Made by a program: the position numbers and the translations under genes. A stretch of DNA of 64,000 nucleotides from Pedinophyceae sp. YPF-701 (lineage: Eukaryota > Chlorophyta > Pedinophyceae): the NCBI GenBank assembly GCA_916048055.1, contig CAJZHL010000028.1, positions 2,108,001 to 2,172,000 of the forward strand, written 5' to 3'. Below are positions 5,824 through 47,939 of this stretch, in pieces (positions within the stretch are counted from its first letter, which is position 1; every line of letters begins with the position of its first letter). The notes under the pieces are model-generated. The model saw only the letters and a program-made list of their open reading frames with translations. It was not told where the DNA came from and did not search any database.

Positions 5824-8800
5824 CTACACCTCCAGCGACAGCCCACACACCTCGACGGCAATCTCCGGGCCTGCGGGAGCCCAGTTCCGCCGCCGGGACC
5901 CCTCCTCCTCGTCCGAGTCCCCGCCCACGTCCACCACGTCGAACCCGCCTGACGTCGGCCGGCACTCCAAGTCGCCCGATGTGGCAGTCTCTGTGCGGTG
6001 CGCCACCTGGCGCTGCGCGCGTCCGCCCGTCCCGGTCGGCGTGACGGGGTGCCCGAGGATGCTGTCGCGGCCGCGGAACGGCCGCTCCCCGCCGACCGTG
6101 TCCGGGCGCGGGCGCTCCTGGCTCGCAGCCGGCGTGAGGATGGGCGGCGTGGACGGCGGATGCTCTGGGGTGCGCGGGCGGTCGGTGCCGCCCTGCAGGG
6201 CCGCGATGCGCGCGGCCACGCTGTCCTCGACGGCTGCGAGGCCCGCCCGGACGGGTTCGACGGCCTTCTGGTTCTTGGTCAGACGCAGGACCTCGAGCGC
6301 GTCTGACAGCGCCGACCAGTCCCCCCCGCCAGGCGCCGTCGCGCCGTGCGCGGCGAGGCCGTCCCGCGCCGCGACCTGCCTCTTGAGGTTCTCCACGCGG
6401 CTCTGGATGTCCGACTCCACCCCGGACATCTCCGAAACGATGTTGTTGTTTTCGTCATTGTTGTTGTTGCCATCTTCGACGTCGCCGGGCGCAAGGCGCA
6501 CCTTCGCAGCTGGGTCCCCAAGCACGGGCCCAGACATCGTCCGCGGGCGCTCCTGCTGCGTCGACGCCGGGCGCACGCTCAGCCGCGTTGGCCCGTTCGC
6601 CGCCGCACCAGCCTGCTGCGACGTCGGCCGCGACGCCGGCTGGCTCCCCGCCTCCTTGGCTCCGTTCCACGGGGACGCGGGAGCGAGCTCGATCATCATG
6701 TTCGGCCGCGTCGGCTCCGTCGGTGCGGCCGCAATCGCCGCGGCGCGGCCCGCGTGCGCGCCCAAGCTGCGCGCGCCGGTGAGCGAGGTTCCGGGCGCGA
6801 CAGCGCGCGCCGCCGGCTCCGGAGCGCCCGGTAGCGGCCCCGCGGATGCGCGCACGTTCATCGACGCGGACGCCGCGGGCCCGGGCGGGCCGTCGGGCGG
6901 AGCGCTGGGCACTAACAGCCGCTGGGAGGGGGGTTCGGGCAGGGACGACAGCGACTTGCGCGTGGACTCGCCGGCCGACAGAGGCACCACGCGCGACTGC
7001 TCCGTGCTGTGTGCGCCGCCCGTCGGCGGCCGCGAGCCGTGCGCTGGGCCTGCGGCGCCGACGGAGCCCGGACGCGACATCGTGGGCTCCGATGCTTGCT
7101 CCTGCGCGCTGCGCGGCGCCATGGCGTCGGGCCTCGCGACGCTTGGAATGTTGGCGGACAGCGGCCGCGGGTCATTCGCGGCGGGGACGTCGCTGCCGGG
7201 CGCGGGGACGGATGTCAGACTGACGCTGTTGCGGTCGTGCGGGGCGCCTGACGTCAGGGCCTGCTCGGGCACGCTCTCGGCGCCCGCCTGGATGACGCTC
7301 GACGCAGGGAGCGCCGCGACGCTCCCGTCGGGGGAGCGCACGCCGCGCAAGGGCAGCGCGGAGGGCTGGGGCGAGGTGGTCACCGACGCCGTCAGCGGGG
7401 AGCCAGGGGGGCGGAGCGGGGGAGTGCCCGGCGACGCCGTTGGTGCCGGCGCGCGGGCCGGCGCCGTGATGTCCATGCTGGGCGCGTGCTCCCCGGGCGG
7501 CGGCGACGGCGGCGCGTCCGGCCGCATCGCGAGACGCCCCCCCGCAGACCCGGGGGGGGTGTTCCCGGTCCCGCCAGCGTAGGGCGCCGCCGCGGTGGAC
7601 GGAAGCGGCGCGGCGAGGTCCTCCTCGACGTCGTGCACCTCGAGGGTGTCTGCGGAAGAAGCAAGCTCGTTGGCGACAATTACTGGCCTGAGTCAGCGCG
7701 TCAGGACGCGTGCGTCGGGCGCGGCGGTACCCACCGCCGAGGCGGCCCCGACAGCGTGCACGGTGTGTGTATCGCGGCGCCGGGGGGGGTGTCGCACCGT
7801 TGTTGAGGGTTGCGCGCGGCCGCTTGCCCGTAGCACGCTCCTGCACGGTGGACAGCGCCGAGCACGCGCGGTGGACCTTCCGCGCCTTCTTCTTCGCGCT
7901 CGAAGCAGCCATGCCCACGAGGTCCGGCATCGACGACTCTGCGCACCACAACGCACCACGCACCATACGTCGCACGCAGCGCCACAAGATGCTCGCACGC
8001 GACGCCATGCGGCGTTGCAGGCGCCGCCGTGGGCGCCGCTGGCCTGCACGTACCTTCCAGGATCCCCGCTCCGTCGCTCGGGCGCGCCGAGCCCGCCACG
8101 TTCCAATCGGAGCTCTGTGCTTCCAACTGTGCAGACTGCACGCGCGCGTGCCCGCGGTTGCCCTTGCGCGCCGCGTCGCCGGGCGCGCCGATCGGGAACG
8201 CCCACTGCTGCGCGGGGTCCGCCGCCGCGGGGCCGAACGCCTGCCGAGGGACGGGCAGCGTGCCGGAGCACGGCACCTCTGCCGGTGCGACGCGCCGAGG
8301 CCCGCCGTAGACGTCGCTGTTTGCCGCGCGGAGCGCCGCGGCGCGCGAGGCCCACTCTGGGTGCTGCGCCCCGGCGGAGAACTCCCCGCCGGCCGGCGCC
8401 ACGCGGGCGGAGGACACGTAGAGAGCGGCCCCGAGGTGGGCCTGCTGCGAGGACACGCGCGCGGGGCCGCCCCCGGGCGCGCTGAGGTCGATGCCCTGGC
8501 CGTTGAAGCCGGAGGGGAGCGAGACGGTGTCGTGCTTGAGCTTCTGGGCCGCGAGGAGGATCTTCTTGCGGTGGCCTGGGGGGATGGTGATGCCGGCAAA
8601 GTTCGCGATTTGGTCCAGGTCGCCGTGGTCGAGGTCCGCGAGCGTGTCCTCGTCCTCGAAGCCTGCAGGGACCGCGGCGCCGGAGGACGCGGGCGCGTCT
8701 CGCACGGGCGTGGCGCGGCAGGGTATGGCCAAGCGGAGAGCGGTGCTCGGACGTCGCGGGACTGCGCGCATCCCGCCCGAAATCGGTCGCGCTTGCGAGC

Positions 8801-13402: not shown

Positions 13403-15038
13403 ATGCCGGACCCTGAAGCCTCTTCATCCACCGACCAGCCGGGCGACGGGCCCAGTGTCAGCGACGGTGCTCAGGGCGGCGCTACCGGGGCCGACGACAC
13501 GCCGGATCGCACAGCCAGGGGCCGTCAGGCTGGTGCGACGACCACGAGCGGCGCAGGAGGACCCGCACCAGGAGCCGAACAGCGCAACCCGTTTTCACTC
13601 TTTGGGCCACCACGGGACGGTGGCGATGCTCAGGGCGGCAGCGCGCCGAGGTTCACGTTTGGGATGCCGTGGCCGCCGTCGTCACAGTCCACGAGGCGGA
13701 CGGGCGCAGGAGGACCCGCACCAGGAGCCGAACAGCGCAACCCGTTTTCACTCTTTGGGCCACCACGGGACGGTGGCGATGCTCAGGGCGGCAGCGCGCC
13801 GAGGTTCACGTTTGGGATGCCGTGGCCGCCGTCGTCACAGTCCACGAGTCGGACGGGCGCGTCCAATGGCACATTTGGCATTGCGTTCGGCACTGGCGTG
13901 CAGGCCGCTGGTGCCGGTTCAGGGACTGACGGAGCGGCGACGGGCGTGGCGTTCGGGGCGGCAACGGGCGTGGCGTTCGGGGCGTCAACAGGCGGGGCGT
14001 TCGGAGCGTCAACGGGGGGCGTTCGGGTCAACGTTCGGGCGGAGCGTCGTCAACGGGCGGGGGGAGCGTCAACGGGCGGGCGTTCGGGGCGTCAACAGGC
14101 GGGGCGTTCGGAGCGTCAACGGCGTCAACAGGCGGGGCGTTCGGAGCGTCAACGGGCGGGGCGTTCGGAGCGTCAACGGGCGGGGCGTTCGGAGCGTCAA
14201 CGGGCGGGGCGTTCGGAGTGCCAACGGGCGGGGCGTCCCGAGCGGGAACAAGTGGGCGCGAGGAGGCTGTGGTGCGCGCGTCTGCGACGAGCCGCCGGCT
14301 GCGGGGAGCGCTCGCCCGAGTGCGGGAACTGGAGGCGCACCTGAGTGCTACAAGGACGCAGCTGCAGAGCGCGGAAGCGCGCGCAGCGGCTGCGGAGGCC
14401 CGCGCCGAGGAGGCGGAGCGCGCCATCGCGGAGCGCGACGAGCAGATCGCGGACCGGAACGCCTTGGTAGCTGCAGCGGATGCCGCGCATGCCGAAGCCG
14501 CCAGCGACGCGGAGATATTGCGCGGGGAGCTTGCGGCGCTGCAGCTCCAGCCGCAGGGAGACTCCGGGGCGGCAGAGGACGCGCGACAGCGGGCGGAGAG
14601 GCGCGCGAGGCAGCTGGAGGGCGAGGCTGATGCGCTGGCGGAGTGCAGCGTGGACGAGCTCGAGCAGCTGATGGAGGTAGTGCACCAGGCAAGGCGACAC
14701 CGGCCCGCAGATTGCATGACGACCGCTCATGCGCCGTCGCGCACGTGTGTATTCGAAATGACACACGCGATCCATTGCGCTTCTGTTTCGCGCTGCAGGC
14801 GGGCTCGCGGATGCGCAGTGCAGTGCGACAGGCGCGGCAGCGCGAGCAGGAGCAGCGCGAACAGCAGCAGCGCGGGCAGGAGGAGGCGCCATCGTGCTGC
14901 GTGTGCTGGTCGGCCCCGCGGACGATTATGCTCAACCCGTGCCGTCACGTCAACATGTGCGAGGGGTGCGCAGGCAGAGTGGACAAGTGCCCAGTGTGCC
15001 GCCAGACCATCAGGAGCCGCGAGCACGTGTACCTGTAG
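13403..15038 (+). CDS. coiled-coil RING-finger protein with FG-like repeats (frame broken by one base)
   Basis: Exon 1 runs 13403..14688 and exon 2 14799..15038. The intron has a GC donor (CACCAG|GCAAGG) and GCTGCAG acceptor. The N-terminus carries two 51-residue repeats (RNPFSLFGPP, RFTFGMPW), then a run of TGGAFGAS units, reminiscent of nucleoporin FG repeats. A helical region follows (ALARVRELEAHLSATRTQLQ onward). Exon 2 ends with a C3HC4 RING: CCVCWSAPR, NPCRHVNMCEGC, CPVCRQTI, close to the BOI/IAP-type RINGs of ubiquitin E3 ligases. The frame changes inside the TGGAFGAS repeat: one 24-base unit near 14072-14094 lacks a G. It is therefore either an assembly error, an unrecognised splice or a real lesion. 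The next gene is a paralogue with the same helix and RING order. Confidence 0.65.
13551..13853 (+). repeat. 153-base tandem duplication in the RING gene
   Basis: Two nearly identical 153-base copies (51 codons each) start at about 13551 and 13704. Each encodes the same segment with FSLFG and FTFG motifs. The period is a multiple of three, so the duplication keeps the frame. Near-identity suggests a recent or homogenised event. Confidence 0.85.
13940..14247 (+). repeat. 24-base coding minisatellite (TGGAFGAS units)
   Basis: About a dozen units of consensus ACGGGCGGGGCGTTCGGAGC plus GTCA encode Thr-Gly-Gly-Ala-Phe-Gly-Ala-Ser. Full-length units flank a central degenerate block at about 14012-14094, where units measure 19, 22, 19 and 23 bases, plus a 9-base remnant further on. 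The 23-base unit shifts the downstream frame. Confidence 0.85.
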
Positions 15039-29020: not shown

Positions 29021-32000
29021 TCACTTGGCGAGCGACTTGAAGGTCTTCTCGATGATCTCCAGGCAGTCGGACAGCTGGCTGTCGTTGATGATCAGCGGCG
29101 GCGCCAGACTGCGCGGGGGGGGGGTATTGGGCGGCGGAGCGGTGAGGAAAACAGCGAGGGCGGTAGAAACGATCACTATCGCGGGCGATGGTGGTCGCGC
29201 TCGATCTCGATCGCGACCAGCTCGACCTCGCGCACGATGCCCTAACGCATGAGCACAGCATGTTTGCGCTGCGGGTCGTCCCGATGCGCAGGAGCTCCGC
29301 GGAGCCGCCCTCCTTGACGCGCGGCATCTCTGGTAGCTCTTGCGCCTCCTCGATCAGCCGTCACCGTCGTCGCGGTGCGGCGGCGGAGGCGCAAGTGCTG
29401 CAAGAGATGCCCCGCTGCAAGGAGGGCGGCTCCGCGGAGCTCCCGCGCATCGGGAACGACCGCGCGTCCAGTGGCGTCGTTGCTGCTTGCTGAAGAGAGA
29501 AAATGGAGAGTGGGCGGTCATTTTGGCCAGGTTGGCTTGTTGCGCTCACCGGATGATGTTGCCCTGCGTGGGCTTGGCGAGCAGGCCGTTCTCCTTCAGC
29601 CTGACGCAGATGTCCCACGCGGAGACGCCGTCGGCCTCGTCGATGACGATGGCGTTCAGGAGGCCCTTGCCGCGCACCATCTTCACCTTGGGGCTGATCT
29701 TCGACAGCGTGTCGCGCACGACGTGGCCCAGACGCTCGGCGTTCTCGGCCAGGTTCTCCTCGATCAGCACGTCCAGGGCCGCCATCGCCACCTTCGCGCC
29801 GAGCGGGTTGCCACCTGCGCGCACACACACACACCGACAAAGAGCATGAGCTCAGCACGCGCCCTACACGCCGTCGCACGCGCACGTCCAGACAGAACGG
29901 CGCGCACTTCCCGCGCAGGCCAGTTCGCGCGGACGCGGCGGGTGTGCGCACCGTAGGTCGACCCGTGCTGGCCCGGGCGGATGTTGAGCATGACCTCGTC
30001 GTTCGCGAGCGCCGCGCTGACGGGGTACACGCCGCCGGACAGCGCCTTGCCCAGCACGAGGATGTCGGGCTTGACGTTCTCGTGGTCGACGCACAGCATG
30101 CGGCCCGTGCGGCACAGCCCCGTCTGGACCTCGTCCGCGATCCACAGTGCGTTGTACTTCGAACACAGCTCCCGCACGCCGCGCAGGTACCCGTCGTGCG
30201 GCACCACGACGCCCGCCTCGCCCTGGATCGGCTCCACCATGAACGCCGCGACGTTCGGGTCCTGCAGCGCCTTCTCCAGCGCGGCGAGGTCGTCGTACGG
30301 AATGATCTCGAAGCCCGGCATGAACGGGCCGAACCCGCCCCGGGACTCGGGGTCCGTCGACGACGAAATGGCCGACATGGTGCGTCCCCAGAAGTTGCCC
30401 GCGGCGAACAGGATCTTGGCCTGGTTCTCCGGGACGCCCTTGACGTCGTAGGCCCAGCGGCGCGCGAGCTTGCAGGCGGTCTCGCCGCCCTCGACGCCCG
30501 TGTTCATCGCGAGGACCTTGTCGTAGCCGAAGAGCGCGGTGGTCTTCTCCTCGAAGTCGGCGAGCACGTTGTTGTAGAAGGCGCGCGACGTGAGCGTGAG
30601 CGTGCTCGCCTGCTTGTTCAGCGCCTCGATGATGCGCGGGTGGCAGTGGCCCTGCGAGCGTGGGCGGGGAGTCCGGGAAGCTGGGCGTGCGCGCGCAGCC
30701 GAGGGTGATGCCCGTAGAGCGGCGTGCCTTACGGCGGCATCCAAATGCAGTGGCGGTTGTTTGCTTATCACTCCTGGCTGCGGCACGACTGCGGGCTGCG
30801 GCATGGCATCATGACGAGGAGAAGACGGTGTGCGAGAGCGAATGCTCCGTCTTCTCGGCGTCATGATGCAATTGCCCAGCGCGCGGTTGTGCCGTAGCCA
30901 GGATGGGCGAACAACCGCCACTGCATGTGGATTCCATCGTTCAGGAGGTGAAGCAGGCAGGCTCGCCCGGGACGGGGTCCGCGGGCGTCCGGCGGGTCGC
31001 ATGGGCGTGTGGGCAATGAAGACAGGGGGCGCGCGCCGACGTGCCTGGTTGACCGCGGAGTACGCGGAGAGGAAGTCGTAGTACTTCTTGCCCTCGACGT
31101 CCCACATGAAGACGCCCTTGCCGCGCGCCGCCACCATCGGGATCGGCGCGTAGTTGTGGGCACCAGCCTTGAGCTCACGCTCGATGAACTGCAGGGCGAC
31201 AACAACGCCGGGAGACGCACGTTTGAGGACTGTTCCGTTCCAGACATTGCGTCTCGTTGCGGGAGGTGGCCGGAAAAGGGCCGTGCTCGCGGCGGGGCAG
31301 GTGGGCGGTTGACGCAGTGGAGGTGGATGGCCCGCCACGCGTGGAGCGCGCGGGGCCTGGTGTGCCCGGCGGAGGCGCGGACGGGCCGTCGCTGTGCGCG
31401 TTGTGGCCCGTGGCGGTGTCGAGGGGGTCGAGGGCGAATCGAGGGGCGCGTGCGGGGGCAGAAGAGCTGAGTGGGCAAGCCCTGCTGTTGGTCCGAAATG
31501 CAGCGTGGCGGAGGCGGATCGTGGACGACGTTGCGCGGGCCCGACTGTGGCGTGCCGGTGTCGCGCGACCAGCTGATCCGGCTTGCGTGTGTTCCCCGCG
31601 CCGCCGCCGTGCGCGGCGCCTGGGGGGCCAGCGGATCAGTTGCCGGCCCAACCGCGACGCACATGGGCTTTCACGACATCAAAGTGCGCTGAGGATCCCC
31701 TGATCAAGCGGGGTAGTCCTTCTCGAGGCGCGAAAACGCGAATTAGCCACAACGGAGGCCGAAAACGCCCCCGCGGACAGGGATAACTGAAGGCGCAAAA
31801 GACGCCGCCAGAACGAGCAGCAGGGGGGTCTCGTGGGCAAAACAGTGCAGAACGAGCTCGTCTCGCGTACGAGCTACACTCTGACGCCGTCGTCGGCGTC
31901 GCAGCGTCGACGTGCGGCGGATGCTGCGGTATCGGATGGGGAGGCGGAGCGCACCGATCGGGACTCCGTGGGCACCTCCTCGAGGGCCGGCGCGGCGCCG

Positions 32001-41216: not shown

Positions 41217-42683
41217 ATGAGTCGCGAGGACATCGAGAATGAGGCCGTGCGCGTGTTCCAGGGCATTGGTCTCGCGGAATCGGTCGCAAAGTGCGTCGCC
41301 TCCCCGTGCTGTGCGTTGCCGGGCCTGTGCCGGCGCGCACACGCCGACATATTCCCTGCCTTGCTCGGGCCACACGCACCTTGATGCTAGGCACGCGAAC
41401 GTGCAGCCAGGCACCTGCCTCGAGGGGCCTGTGCGGCGCTGCCCGATGAGAACCTGGGCCAATGCAAGTTCGTGCGCACGGTCGCGGGGGGGCAGCGACT
41501 GACCTGCGCAATGCGTTGCGAGCGGGCACGTATGCTTGCTCGACAGCAGCCGCACGCTCTCACGCCATGCGCGCGCTGCGCGCGACCTGGGCTGGCACTC
41601 ACCACCCGCAAAGCCGCCTTCTGCAGGAATGCCGCGAAGAACAAGCAGTTCCGCGCGGCCCTGATGGAGGTCATCAAGGAGAGCGGCCTTGAGAATGGAT
41701 GCCCGAAGAGCCAGGTGCGCCACGCGGACGCATCGCTGCCCTGCACTCACACCTGCAGCAGCCGCCCGCGTCCGGCGCCCCCCGCCCACGCAACCCTCCA
41801 GATCCACGCCCGACAATACACCATTCAACGACGCATCCCATTCTCCGCAACACCGAGCCCGATCACCCCCCCCCGCCATCGCAAGCCCCGCCCCACTGCT
41901 CACCGGCCCTCGCCCCGCCCGCCCGCGGCCCCGCAGGGCATGATGGTCTACACGATCGCGTCCAAGTTCCCCCCGAGCGTCCTCGTGCACCGCAAGTGGG
42001 TCGTCGACAACTACGTCCTCACCGACAAGATCTGCTCCAACAACCAGCTCGATGCCGCTATGGCGTATCTGAAAAAGGCCGGCGGCGAGGCCAAGATCGA
42101 CGTCCCGGCCTTCGAGGAAGCCTCCGGCGTCGGCGTCGTCGTCACGCCCGAGCAGATCCGCGACGCCGTCGCCGGCGCCCTCCAGGGTGCCAACCTGACG
42201 AAGCTCACCACGGAGCGTTACCTGTGCAACACCAACGTGTTTCTGGGGCCGATCATGGCCAGCGTGAAGTGGGCGGCGCCGCAGGACGTCAAGGACGAGC
42301 TCGCAAAGCAGGTCGCGGCCATCCTGGGCCCGAAGACCGCCGCGGACGAGGCGGCGATCGCCGAGGCCAAGGCGGGGGGTAAGAAGGGGAAGAAGAAGGC
42401 GGTGGCGGCGGCGGCGGGCGCGCAGGACGCGCCGGGCGCGTCGCCGAAGGCGGCGAAGAAGAAGCCCGAGGAGCCCGTGAGCACCGAGGGCCTCGGCGAC
42501 GCGGCGACGGGCGACCAGGACCCGTTTGCGTTCCTGCCGCCGCCGGCGGACAACCACTACGTGCACACTACGGTGAACTTCTCCGACGGGCGGCCGCCGC
42601 TGCGCGTGGCGAACACGCAGCAGGAGCTCGACGCGCACCTGAGGCGCACGGGCGGCAAGTACGTCACGCGGTTCCCCCCGGAA

Positions 42684-42721
<38 letters not shown>

Positions 42722-44899
42722 GTTCATCGACTTCGGCGCCGCGGCGCGGTACGACGGGCACTGCTTCCTGCGCTTCGACGACACCAACCCCGAGGCCGAG
42801 AAGCAGGAGTTCATCGACCACATCCAAGACATCGTGCAGTGGATGGGCTGGAAGCCGTGGAAGGTGACGCACGCGTCGTACTACTTCCAGCAGCTCTACG
42901 AGCTCGCGGTGAAGCTGATCAAGGTCGGCAAGGCGTTCGTGTGCCACCAGACGGCGGAGCAGGTCAAGGAGTACCGCGAGAAGCGGCTGCCGTCGCCGTA
43001 CCGCGAGCGCCCCGTGGAGGAGAACCTGCGGCTCTTCGAGGACATGCGCCGCGGGCTGTTCCCGGAGGGCGGCGCGGTGCTGCGGATGAAGCAGGACGTG
43101 GCCAACGAGAACTACAACATGTTTGACCTGATCGCGTATCGGATCAAGTACGTGGAGCATCCGATCGCGGGCGACGAGTGGTGCATCTACCCGTCGTACG
43201 ACTTCACGCACTGCGTGTGCGACGCCATCGAGGACATCACGCACTCCCTCTGCACCCTCGAGTTCGAACCGCGCCGCGCGTCCTACTACTGGCTGCTCGA
43301 CGTGCGCAACCCCACGCAACCCCGCGTCCGCGCCGCTCGCAACGCGCAGCCGAACGCGTGCTTCCGCCCCTCGCTCCGTGGGACGGGGCCGATCGCGCGA
43401 GGGCGCCCCGTGCGTGCTTCGCAGGCCCTGGACATGTACAAGCCGTGTGTGTGGGAGTATTCGAGGATGAATATCTCGAACACCGTGCTCTCGAAGCGGA
43501 AGCTGCACAAGCTGGTGCATGACAAGCACGTGCGCGGCTGGGACGACCCGCGCCTGTTCACGCTCGCCGGCCTGCGCCGCCGCGGCGCCACCGCTGACGG
43601 CATCAACGCCTTCTGCCGCGACGTCGGCTTCTCCCGGAACGGTGCGTCCCCAGCATCCCACCCCGTCACGGAGCATATGCTTTGGTAGTCGCAAGACCAG
43701 GGCGCATCCGCTTGTGCTTGGCTGACGACGCCCTGCGCGCCAGACTGACTACGATGCCTCCCACGCGCTGCACCGCGCCGTCAACCAGCACGCGAAGGAC
43801 GTCCCCGACCTCCTGCGCGTGCTGTTAGAGTGCGCGGTGCAGCGCGTTGGAGTGCATCGCACTCAGTCTGGTGCGCAGGGCGTCATCAACCAATTCCATA
43901 CCACAGCCCAACAGAACTTGCAAGTGCTATGTGGCAAGCGCCTGTTCACGAAGGCCAGCTGCGAGGCCGACCTGCGCGGCCGCCACGAGCTTTACGCTGA
44001 CCGTTCCGGATGGGGTGGTGGAGCACGACCAGACTTGTCCCTTGCTGTGGGGGTGTGCGCTGCCTGGCGCGGGCACACGGATGTCTCCTGCCGCGCGCGA
44101 GACTCTCCTGCCGCTGCTGTGGCTCCGAGCCGAGCCGTGCAGACGCCAGAAGCAGTTCGCGCGCATCAGGAGTCGATTCCTCACCTCACATCGCGTTGTG
44201 TGTCTGCGTGCAGAGAACACCATCCACCAGCACCGCCTGGACCACTTCCTGCGCAACGACCTGGACCGCATCGCCCCGCGCCGCATGTGCGTCCTCGACC
44301 CCGTCAAGCTCGTCCTCGAGAACTCCCGCGAGCCCCTGCCCTGCGAGTGCCGTTGCTTCCCCCCGGGTCGCACGGGCCCGCACGCGCAGGACACCTACGC
44401 CCTGTCGCTCGGCCGCGAGGTCTGGATCGAGCGGAGCGACTTCAAGGAGGCCGACGTCAAGGGCTATTTCGGGCTGGCGCCCGGCAAGTCCGTCATGCTG
44501 CGCTACGGACACGTGGTCACGTGCACCGGGTTCGACCGCGCTCCGGACGGGAGCGTCGCGGCGATCCGCGCGGAGGTGCACGCGTCGTGGGAGGGCAAGC
44601 CGCCGAAGGGCGTGATCCACTGGGTGCCGTGCGAGGGCGCGGTGCCGCTCGAGGCGCGGTTGTACGACTCGCTGTTCAAGAGCGAGGACCCGAACGAGTG
44701 CGAGGACTGGATCGCGGACCTGAACCCGGAGTCGGAGGTGGTGAAGGTCGGGTGGGCGCCGGCGATGCTGGCGGACGCGCAGGTGGGGGACAAATTCCAG
44801 TTTGAGCGGGTGGGGTACTTTTGCATCGACCCCGACAGCAGCCGGCGGCGCGTCGTTGCGAACCGGACGGTCACGCTCAAGGACTCGTACAAGAAGTAG
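41217..44899 (+). CDS. GLN4/QARS: glutaminyl-tRNA synthetase, eukaryotic cytosolic type
   Basis: Exons 41217..41290, 41627..41714, 41937..43301, 43425..43641 and 44214..44899 join to 809 residues, all GT-AG. The protein attaches glutamine to tRNA-Gln. It carries the non-catalytic N-terminal domain of eukaryotic enzymes (EDIENEAVRVFQGIGLAESV onward), a Lys/Ala-rich linker, and a class-I catalytic core. The core has FPPEPNGYLHIGHAKAM (HIGH motif), FLRFDDTNPEAEKQEFI, FEPRRASYYWLLD|ALDMYK and the KMSKS-equivalent VLSKRK. The beta-barrel anticodon-binding region follows GFSRN|ENTIHQHRLDHFL and ends in VANRTVTLKDSYKK. It lacks an obvious targeting peptide. Intron 4 (570 bases) is the longest in the gene and contains an odd open segment. 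An 830-residue frame on the opposite strand is a shadow. Confidence 0.95.
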
Positions 44900-45980
44900 C
44901 GGGCGCGAGACGGGAGCGCGCGGCGCGGGAACCGCGATGTGATGCCCTCGGAACCAGCTCTGCAGGCGCTGGCAGGCCTGCGCCCTGGAACGCACGAGAG
45001 GCGAGCCTCAGCAGCTAGACCTCGGTTGCGATGGCGGGCCTGGGCAGCGCCGCGGCCGAAATACTTCGGCGCAGGAGTGCGTGCGTGCTTTCTTGTATTC
45101 ATGGTGAGTTTGCACGCCTGCCCCCCCACCAACGCGTGCGCGTTCTCCAGGCCTCCGCGGTGGACGACGTCCTTGGACGTATCGCGGTCCTCAAGCCTCG
45201 CGTCGTGTGCCCGCACGCCTTCGGTGTCTTTGCGCGGGGGACGCGACACCGCCAAGGGCTTATCGGGTCTTGAAAGGACGGTGATCTCCCGTTTTCCTTC
45301 CATCGGGACGCCGAGAAGTACACGATCTTTGTTGTGCCGCCTCTCGGCGTCCCGATGGAGGGCAAGCAGGAGATCACCGTCCTCTCGACACCCGACAAGC
45401 CCTTGGCGGTGACACGGCCCCCGCGCGAGGGTGCCGAGGGTGCGCGGGTCCACGATGCGAGATGGGAAGACTGCGACACGTCCAAGGATGACGTAGACCG
45501 CGGAGGCCTGGAGGACGCGCACGCTTTGGTGGCTGCCGCTGCCGTGAAGACGCTGACAGCGGACCTCCCTTGGTATGCTGATTTGATGTCTCGGATCCCT
45601 GTGCGATTTCTGGATGCCACCACCGTCGGGCCTGGGCAGCGCCGCGGCCGAAATACTTCGGCGCAGGCGTGCAAACTCACCATTAACACAAGAAAACACG
45701 CGTGACAACTTGCAATTGAAAGACGGAGGTTCCAGCCCAGCGTCCTCGTCTTGACGCGCGGCCGGCGAAGCGCGTCGCGCTTGCCATTTTTCTCGCTCCC
45801 GCCCGGGCCCCGCTCGCCGGTCGATGAGGCCCCTGCTCGACGGCTGTGTTGCTTCTTGAATCAACCTCACTCGAGACGATTGCTCGATGATAGCAACTTA
45901 CAGATCATGCGTACACGCGAAGGACGCGCGCCCCCCACAGGCCGCTACCGTCGCCCCTGCGAAACACCCCCCCGCGGCGC
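44900..45980. other. convergent spacer holding a long foldback
   Basis: It lies between the stops of the GlnRS and TPR genes. Most of it is occupied by the inverted repeat annotated at 45035-45705. No conventional gene was identified. Confidence 0.6.
45035..45705. repeat. long foldback: 190-base arms, 20-base loop, extra outer elements
   Basis: The inner left arm is about 45128-45318 and the inner right arm about 45340-45532. They are reverse complements at an estimated 80 percent identity, with a loop of about 20 bases. Outside this, a 40-base block containing GCCGAAATACTTCGGCGCAG occurs in the same orientation at about 45035-45075 and 45628-45667. A second block (ATGGTGAGTTTGCACG at about 45102-45117 and its reverse complement at about 45668-45683) is inverted. 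About 95 unpaired bases (45533-45627) interrupt the right side. A transcript from either strand would fold into a near-continuous hairpin. Confidence 0.85.
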
Positions 45981-47939
45981 CTACGCGCCGGCGATGAGCG
46001 CGGCCGCGAGGCCGAGCGGCAGCGCGATGACAGCGATGGCCGCGGTCACGCCAAGCACGTCGAACTCCTCCTCCTCGGGCGCCACGGCCACGTAGCTCAC
46101 GTCCCGCGACGCAAACCGCTGGAAATACCCCTCCCAGTCCTTACTGCTCGCCGCGTAAGATATGCTGCGCGCCTTGAGGTGGTCCATCGCCTTGTACCCG
46201 AACAGCATCCGCGACGCCTGCCGCGCGACCTCCGCGACGGGGTGCCCCTTGAGCGACTGGTACAGCTGCTGCGCCTGCTCCTCGCGCCCCATCGAGTCCA
46301 GGCAGATGGCCTGCTGCAGCGTCGCGCGCCCGCCGACCTCCGTGCGCTTCGGAATCAGCGCCGCCGCGGCCTCGAACTTCTCCGCCGCCTCGGTCAGGTT
46401 CCCGTCCCTGCGCGAGCGTGCCACGCAACTGTGTCGCCATGCGCACACGTGGCTGTCGGCGTGGTGGCGGCGTGGCGCGGCGCGTGTGCGTACCTGAAGA
46501 TGTCCATGCCCTCGTTGAACAGCGCCCACGCCTTGGTCTCGTCCGCGGGGTCGTACACGAGCCCCGACGCCACTCGGTAATTCTGCATGAGCTGCCGGGT
46601 GCGCTCGAGGCGCTTCTTCGCGGCATCCTCGTCCTCGTACTCGCCGGGCTTGATCACGCGCCCGCCGCCGTACGCCTCGCTGATGTTGCGCGGCCGCGGA
46701 AACACCCCCCAGGTAGTCACCGTGGGGTTGTATTCCTTGCTGGCTGACACCACCTCGACGCGCGTCGTCTCGGCCTGCCACCGCGCGTACGCCTCGTTGT
46801 ACTCCTCCGCCCGCAGCGCCTTCACGTCGATGTCCTCCCGCTCGCACCACTCCTTCCAGCTGACCACACCGGCCTCAGACACCCCCCCCCCGCGCAGCGC
46901 AGGGCCCGCACCGTCCCCCGCGGCCGCGCCCGCGCCGGCCTCGTCCCCGCGCAGCCGCGCCATCTGCTTGTCGATGCGCTCCTGGCGCGTGCCGCGGCGG
47001 GAGGGGTCTCTGACGCCCAGGTCTGACTCGTCGATGCCCGACACCTGGTTCCCCATCACGTCGAACGAGCCCGTGCCGGACACGACCTGCTCGCGGCGCT
47101 TGCTGTACTCCGCGGCGGTCGCGACCCCGCCCAGGCGCGTCCCGGGCGGCTTCGGAGTCCCGGGCGAGGCGGGCGCAGCGGGCGCAGGTGCTGCCTCCCG
47201 GGCCTTCGTCTGCTCGGCCTTCGCGGAGAGGAACGCGTCCTCCTCGGGCTTCGCAGCCAGAGAGACCTGCGGGGCGTGCGGGGGCGGGGAGCTGAGCGCG
47301 GGGGCGCTGGCCGTGAGCCTGCGCACGGCTGCTTGCGCTTTGGCGGGGGGCAGTCGACGTCGCACGAACCTGCTCCATGAACTTCCGCTCGATGTCGCTC
47401 TTGTCGGAGCTGTCGGGCCTCGCGGGCGCGCCGCCCTGGGCGGTCGCGGGGGCTCCGGGGGCCGGTGTCGCGGCGCCTGCGGTGCTCCCGGACGCTCGAT
47501 CGCCGCCCTGGTCGTCCGCGCCGATCGAGGGCCGCGCCTTGCCGCTAGCCACCTGGCTCTTGTACTTCAGGGCGGCGGCCAGACGTGCTTTGGCGTCTGT
47601 GGGCGCGTCCGTCGACGCATCCCTGTTTTTTGGGGCATCGTCCGCGGACGCACTCCCCGCGCTCTCCTGTCGCGTCCCCTCCTCACCCCCAAACAAGCTA
47701 TCCTCTACGCTCTGCATCAGGCTGTTCGCGCGCGGCTGCCCGTCCGCAGGCGGCTCCTCGACGCCGTTGGATGCATTGCTCCCGTCCCCTCGCGTCGCGG
47801 CGACGACGACGGCCCCGCGCCTGCGAAAGCGGCGCAACGGCTCCCTCGCGCCTGCCGCTTCCGGGACGTGCCGGCCGCGACGGACCGGGGCTGCGCAGGC
47901 CCTGGGGCACCCCAGCCCTGCCGGGAGTGCAACCCCCAT
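45981..47939 (-). CDS. TPR-like protein, probably plastid, with C-terminal membrane helix
   Basis: Exons 47939..47370, 47266..46494 and 46407..45981 join to 589 residues, all GT-AG. The first 55 residues (MGVALPAGLGCPRACAAPVR onward, ending RRGAVVVAATRG) resemble a chloroplast transit peptide. A disordered middle part is followed by MGNQVSGIDESDLGV and a conserved-looking block with WKEWCEREDIDVKAL. TPR-type helices come next (AAEKFEAAAALIPKRTEVGG, GREEQAQQLYQSLKGHPVAE). The C-terminus has one hydrophobic helix (VTAAIAVIALPLGLAAALIAG) just before the stop, consistent with a tail anchor in a thylakoid or envelope membrane. The TPR plus tail-helix layout resembles uncharacterised plant plastid TPR proteins. 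The function is unknown. Confidence 0.75.

Follow-up and report, generated by a model that had tools for sequence, protein, structure and literature searches.

Two inverted arms that face each other near 45 kb of the window (the whole 64,000-nt stretch of DNA analysed here) differ from one another in the manner of coding sequences, and no parent for them was found in the genome. Judged from where their differences fall, both arms were coding, or coding-derived, during their divergence; this coding-type divergence without a found parent is the most unexpected fact about the locus and an anomaly for simple duplication and drift. On the overall reading that we favour, to which we give roughly an even chance, the locus arose as an in-place inverted duplication of coding sequence, and read-through RNA across it would be a substrate for Dicer. 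The arms would then be a single-copy, head-to-head pair of pieces from one protein-coding sequence.

Structure and genomic setting of the hairpin

The earlier note had described facing arms of about 190 bases, at about 80% identity, around a loop of about 20 bases, and measurement bears this out. The inner arms span 191 nt each and are 82% complementary across a 25-nt loop (45317-45341): the left arm (45126-45316) is coding-like on the minus strand (LGVPMEGKREITVLS...AHALV; ATG at 45303), and the right arm (45342-45532) is coding-like on the plus strand (LGVPMEGKQEITVLS...AHALV; ATG at 45355). The hairpin is real, but its description as near-perfect was generous: the inner arms differ at 35 of 191 positions, 16 of which form G:U pairs on the plus strand.

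The paired and direct-repeat blocks reported outside the main arms were likewise found. Two outer arms of 42 nt, at 45083-45124 (minus strand) and 45660-45701 (plus strand), are partners at 90% complementarity. Beyond them, a 46-nt direct repeat is present on the plus strand at 45035-45080 and 45627-45672, with 98% identity between the copies; the first copy contains the small palindrome GCCGAAATACTTCGGC, and the last 13 nt of the second double as the start of the right outer arm. Between inner and outer arms, a plus-strand stretch of 127 nt (45533-45659) occurs on the right side only, against 1 nt on the left. In BLAST, the locus matches its own inverse with 361 bits. One dinucleotide-shuffled version of the 254 kb sampled here (the window plus 19 stretches, each of 10 kb) yields no self-hit better than 59.9 bits.

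Folding of the region, which had been proposed as a check, was carried out computationally and gave a minimum free energy of -487.4 kcal/mol for the predicted RNA, against -298.1 +/- 7.1 kcal/mol for 20 shuffles (z = -26.5). The predicted inner stem comprises 180 pairs on the plus strand and 168 on the minus strand, with a longest uninterrupted stack of 28 on the plus strand. The long, well-paired stem expected of a small-RNA hairpin locus is therefore present in the predicted fold of a single transcript.

The hairpin starts 135 nt beyond the stop codon of a plus-strand glutaminyl-tRNA synthetase (GlnRS) gene (41472-44899), which carries tRNA-synt_1c and anticodon-binding domains. This gene consists of a long open frame (41472-43688), an intron near 43642-44212 (exon joins judged by eye) and a last exon (44214-44899; stop codon at 44897-44899). 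Since a minus-strand open frame without a Pfam match (45981-46850) ends at 45981 on the right, the hairpin lies between probable convergent genes, and GlnRS is a plausible source of a read-through transcript over it. TGTAA occurs five times on each strand, one occurrence standing behind the minus-strand neighbour (45898), and these counts do not settle where the GlnRS transcript ends. Searches of the window with Rfam at the gathering threshold and for tRNAs gave no match.

Elsewhere in the window, positions 13550-14244 hold tandem repeats, first of a 153-nt unit at 99% identity and then of 24-nt units, which appear to encode FG-rich repeats and look nucleoporin-like by eye. As a separate observation on the genome, three RbcS copies with equal scores lie within 17 kb on contig C19 (C19:889071-905715), and a fourth, weaker match to RbcS lies on C2. 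The nearest PDB entries to the C19 match are what we take to be Chlamydomonas-type chains, followed by what are presumably plant chains, and on this ranking the genome looks like that of a green alga.

Coding-type divergence of the inverted arms

Two of the six reading frames are open in both inner arms, one on each strand. The peptide that the earlier note had read in both arms (GVPMEGK[QR]EITVLS, DKPLAV) is present, and its frame continues into the outer arms, where the common reading is QACKLT[IM]NTRKHA; the 126-nt difference in length between the two sides is an exact multiple of three (42 codons). In the plus-strand frame, 21 of the 35 inner-arm differences fall at third codon positions, with dN of 0.11 and dS of 0.65 between the arms (dN/dS about 0.17); the corresponding values for the minus-strand frame are 0.14 and 0.43. 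Amino-acid changes between the inner arms number 13, compared with means of 20.7-22.5 when the observed changes were re-placed at random among like bases with composition matched. This deficit held at P <= 0.0006 in all four versions of the placement (either arm as ancestor, next base held or not; 5000 draws each). The pattern is that of purifying selection on one common frame, as expected of a protein-coding pair.

It had been suggested that a gene fragment was copied in inverted orientation. The inverted coding copies are indeed there, but because most differences between the arms are at third codon positions, a dead fragment that was then left to drift is not supported. On this pattern of differences, constraint acted on both copies once the inversion had taken place, or else two copies that had diverged earlier came to lie together. 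The favoured history follows the first course, in which both copies would have kept their frame and amino-acid constraint while most of the differences accumulated; a later joining of two already diverged copies is a possible alternative.

The same pattern would be produced by two small, divergently oriented, lineage-specific protein genes that are still translated, from the ATGs at 45303 (minus) and 45355 (plus), with the hairpin as a side effect. This is consistent with the dN/dS of about 0.17, the openness of both arms and the indel of exactly 42 codons, as well as with GC content by codon position, which is 0.75/0.48/0.83 and 0.73/0.46/0.78 in the inner arms and follows the same order as in the GlnRS exon (0.67/0.44/0.96). 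The third position is nevertheless lower in the inner arms (0.78-0.83) than in three host coding stretches (0.91-0.97), only 51 nt separate the two ATGs, leaving small space for a two-way promoter, and the left frame continues as antisense of GlnRS. The open frame that spans the right arms (45355-45705, plus strand, ATG to TGA, 117 codons including the stop) has no homologue that could be found, either in Pfam or in a protein set searched through shared five-residue words, and an AlphaFold model, built from two sequences only, reached a mean pLDDT of 40.3. We consider such a gene pair unlikely.

An artefact of assembly, in which a long read that folded back on itself was joined into the contig, would also create facing arms. 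Fold-back reads are a known fault of long-read sequencing. They would yield near-identical arms, however, and the arms here are 18% diverged with a codon-position pattern, so that a chimera of this kind has next to no probability.

Copy number, sister hairpins and origin

A parent gene or further copies were sought across the whole genome (27.9 Mb, 32 contigs). Only matches internal to the locus were returned, four by DNA and three by protein. Searches with the outer pieces and terminal patterns revealed no further copy in the genome beyond two chance-like matches to the 20-nt core of the direct repeat, one on C1 and one on C4, at 2 and 3 mismatches; these were set aside, a reversed control pattern having given one match. 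In the 5.8-billion protein set, no parent or homologue sharing the five-residue words on which that search relies was found. Pfam gave no match to the arm frames, with only a sub-threshold DUF7158 hit to the long minus-strand frame (E 0.047), and PDB held no homologue of the arm protein. The DNA and protein searches of the genome, whose reach is to matches longer than 21-nt targets, also gave no recognisable target or founder gene. The whole-genome tool scores only the best candidates and passes over very common words, and the protein search requires shared five-residue words; the case for absence of a parent is accordingly strong and falls short of proof.

The locus was set against hairpins found by self-comparison of the 254 kb. 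Seven hairpins of at least 124 bits were detected, the 45-kb locus included, four of them in the window; the single shuffled set gave no self-hit above 59.9 bits. Among 14 stretches picked by position alone (L026-L039, 140 kb), one, L038, contained hairpins, two in number, and the other hairpin-bearing stretch, L021, had been chosen for covering the Dicer-like gene; the density is accordingly no more than approximate. Left out of the seven are two shorter or weaker self-complementary segments (L033:1565-1624 and L035:8955-9002), three segments that score 56.7-59.9 bits and do not exceed the shuffled maximum (L023:1995-2092, L030:3182-3290 and window 7304-7522), and weaker two-arm matches, of which the real DNA has more than the 29 rows of the shuffled set.

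The three sister hairpins in the window are intronic, with exon joins judged from conserved protein sequence. The second hairpin (43718-43893; arms of about 87 nt, 85% identity) lies inside the GlnRS intron. The third (30736-30935; arms of about 90 nt, 80%) and the fourth (29274-29461; arms of about 77 nt, 90%) lie in a gene that we take, by its conserved residues, to be ornithine aminotransferase, the former between SAVNQ and GHCHP, the latter in the last intron. In the intron at 30652-31045 of this gene, a GC donor seems to be needed for the SAVNQ-GHCHP join, whose conservation we presume. A further hairpin, L021:9194-9367 (G000 C4:212194-212367; 174 nt, arms of 77 nt, 81%), separates the two halves of the first RNase III domain in the Dicer-like gene. 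From its position it probably sits in an intron of that gene, although it may instead be an in-frame coding insert, as the frame is open through it.

L038 carries two hairpins about 300 bp apart (L038:1450-1867 and 2164-2567), both apparently intergenic. The first (L038:1450-1848) has arms at 97.5% identity over a 160-column alignment, with one substitution and a 3-nt gap, and carries an additional 20-nt copy on the outside; a genome search with it gave three matches, all within itself. From this near-identity it looks young and resembles an inverted-duplication event caught early. Its arms derive from an open frame ending in ...FLRADTIPS, for which no homologue was found in the protein set.

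Across the hairpins, arm identities run from 97.5% down to about 79%. Compared mutually, the seven do not match each other; three of them have matches of 24-35 nt in other stretches of the sample, four in all (E 0.0006-0.008). Differences by codon phase in the six other hairpins number 6/4/2, 4/2/1, 10/3/2, 6/5/4 and 16/12/7, the sixth having a single difference; a clear skew is seen only for 10/3/2, in an ornithine aminotransferase intron. Since only the Dicer-gene hairpin has an ungapped main-arm alignment among the six, and its frames give dN of 0.21-0.27 against dS of 0.14-0.34, coding-type divergence is shown for the 45-kb locus alone.

These comparisons bear on the possibility, raised in the earlier note, of a foldback element, and equally on other elements with long inverted repeats, of the MITE type or introners. 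The inverted and direct repeats at the ends and the intronic position of sister hairpins are features that such elements would share. A mobile family should nevertheless have left other copies: DNA, protein and terminal-pattern searches recovered no further copy of the arms or ends, genome searches with two of the six sisters gave none either, and the seven are unmatched among themselves. On these copy searches the foldback reading is not supported, and we give it only a very slight chance. A by-eye glance at the flanks of the locus, which has no sharply defined ends, showed no clear target-site duplication. Very unlikely, too, is that the hairpins are captured foreign gene pieces, from a virus or selfish element, that are kept as inverted repeats within introns and downstream of genes and are diced into a heritable RNA memory. 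Such a capture would explain both why the arms resemble two strains of a constrained gene and why no parent was found in the host; two scans of IMG/VR viral contigs, which mainly reach close relatives, found no relative.

In-place inverted duplication through template switching during replication or repair, rather than transposition, is the origin that we favour. It is suggested by the lack of second copies or common ends, by the young in-place example in L038 and by the extra outer copies (20 nt there, 46 nt here). As the parent was not found, duplication from one gene is read from the geometry. The outer arm begins with the motif that closes the direct repeat, GCAGG[A/C]GTGC, and the outer arm is inverted on the left and direct on the right. 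Because this arrangement is what such an event would leave, we propose a second, later switch at the 10-nt microhomology GCAGG[A/C]GTGC, from which the direct repeat and the inversion of the outer arm would have resulted.

Small-RNA machinery and comparison with known systems

The host genome appears equipped to process such a stem. An Argonaute with Piwi and PAZ domains is encoded on C4; it matched 50 PDB sequences, with Argonautes at the top. About 7 kb away on the same contig lie two of the genome's four RNase III matches, domains spaced about 1 kb from each other. These domain matches indicate a host with Dicer and Argonaute; the sole PAZ match adjoins the Piwi domain, and none was seen at the RNase III gene. 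The Argonaute and tandem RNase III genes occupy opposite strands within about 11 kb (L021-L022, C4:211267-221808). A transcript reading through the locus would form a stem of about 180 pairs, or about 260 with the outer arms, which the Dicer-like enzyme of this genome could cut, yielding small RNAs and lowering the transcript that carries it, as in Chlamydomonas introns and 3' UTRs. Origin by template switching, transcription, dicing and effect are all steps that we infer. We give dicing, whether or not it has consequences, about an even chance.

Mismatch types lend no support to selection on RNA pairing, as they lack an excess of G:U. On the plus strand, the ratio of G:U to A:C mismatches is 16:8 for the inner arms (two-sided P 0.15) and 0:2 for the outer ones. 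For the four hairpins of intronic or probably intronic position, read in the sense direction, it is 4:13 (P 0.049), opposite to the direction expected of RNA-stem selection. This agrees with a neutral by-product, in which inverted duplications are frequent and decay, and the hairpin is unprocessed or has no effect. The seven hairpins in 254 kb without mutual matches and the spread of arm identities from 97.5% to about 79% fit the same picture. It leaves the synonymous bias of the 45-kb locus unexplained, however, unless the constraint is older than the hairpin, and with an Argonaute and an adjacent RNase III gene present, a transcribed stem of 180 pairs would hardly be ignored. We regard the neutral explanation as somewhat doubtful and retain the duplication whose transcript is diced as our preferred reading.

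For the 45-kb hairpin the small-RNA reading is plausible. The earlier proposal of a hairpin-RNA or miRNA-type locus is to that extent upheld, resting on the inverted coding copies, a genome with Argonaute and RNase III, and an architecture like that described for Chlamydomonas (PMC4817775). According to that source, 61.1% of high-confidence Chlamydomonas miRNAs come from introns (nine) or UTRs (two), splicing is unneeded for the intronic miRNA tested, and, among 13 mRNAs that carry a miRNA in the UTR, 8 are more abundant in dcl3 mutants. The DCL3-dependent intron and UTR hairpins of Chlamydomonas reinhardtii described there are, like those here, stem-loops in ordinary genes of a host with Argonaute and Dicer-like genes (PMC4817775). 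The present locus, known from genomic DNA alone, differs in the coding-type divergence of its arms and in that its parent was not found.

In plant MIR genes, the founder usually persists as a target and the arms drift. Here, by contrast, the founder was not found and the arms were under amino-acid constraint. What the two have in common is that inverted copies form a hairpin, plant MIR genes being described as born by inverted duplication (PMC5511227). The Drosophila hpRNA loci Nmy and Tmy are also long hairpins, recent and species-limited, and are thought to have been duplicated from their target gene, whereas here a target was not found in the genome (PMC10292708).

Where new small-RNA genes are born is an open question: Chlamydomonas precursors often lie in introns or UTRs (PMC4817775), and its miRNAs are reported not to be conserved, many of the condition-prevalent ones arising from fairly long hairpins (PMC5511227). 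A compact algal genome that combines hairpins from 97.5% down to about 79% arm identity with Dicer-like and Argonaute genes could make the birth, dicing and decay of such loci observable.

The hairpin in the probable intron of the Dicer-like gene has its own parallels, MIR838 in intron 14 of Arabidopsis DCL1 and miR1047 in intron 7 of Physcomitrella DCL1 (PMC4429486). Hairpins are not rare in this genome, and its placement may be coincidence. As the Arabidopsis and Physcomitrella hairpins are unrelated in that account, L021:9194-9367 could be a third independent case of self-control by Dicer.
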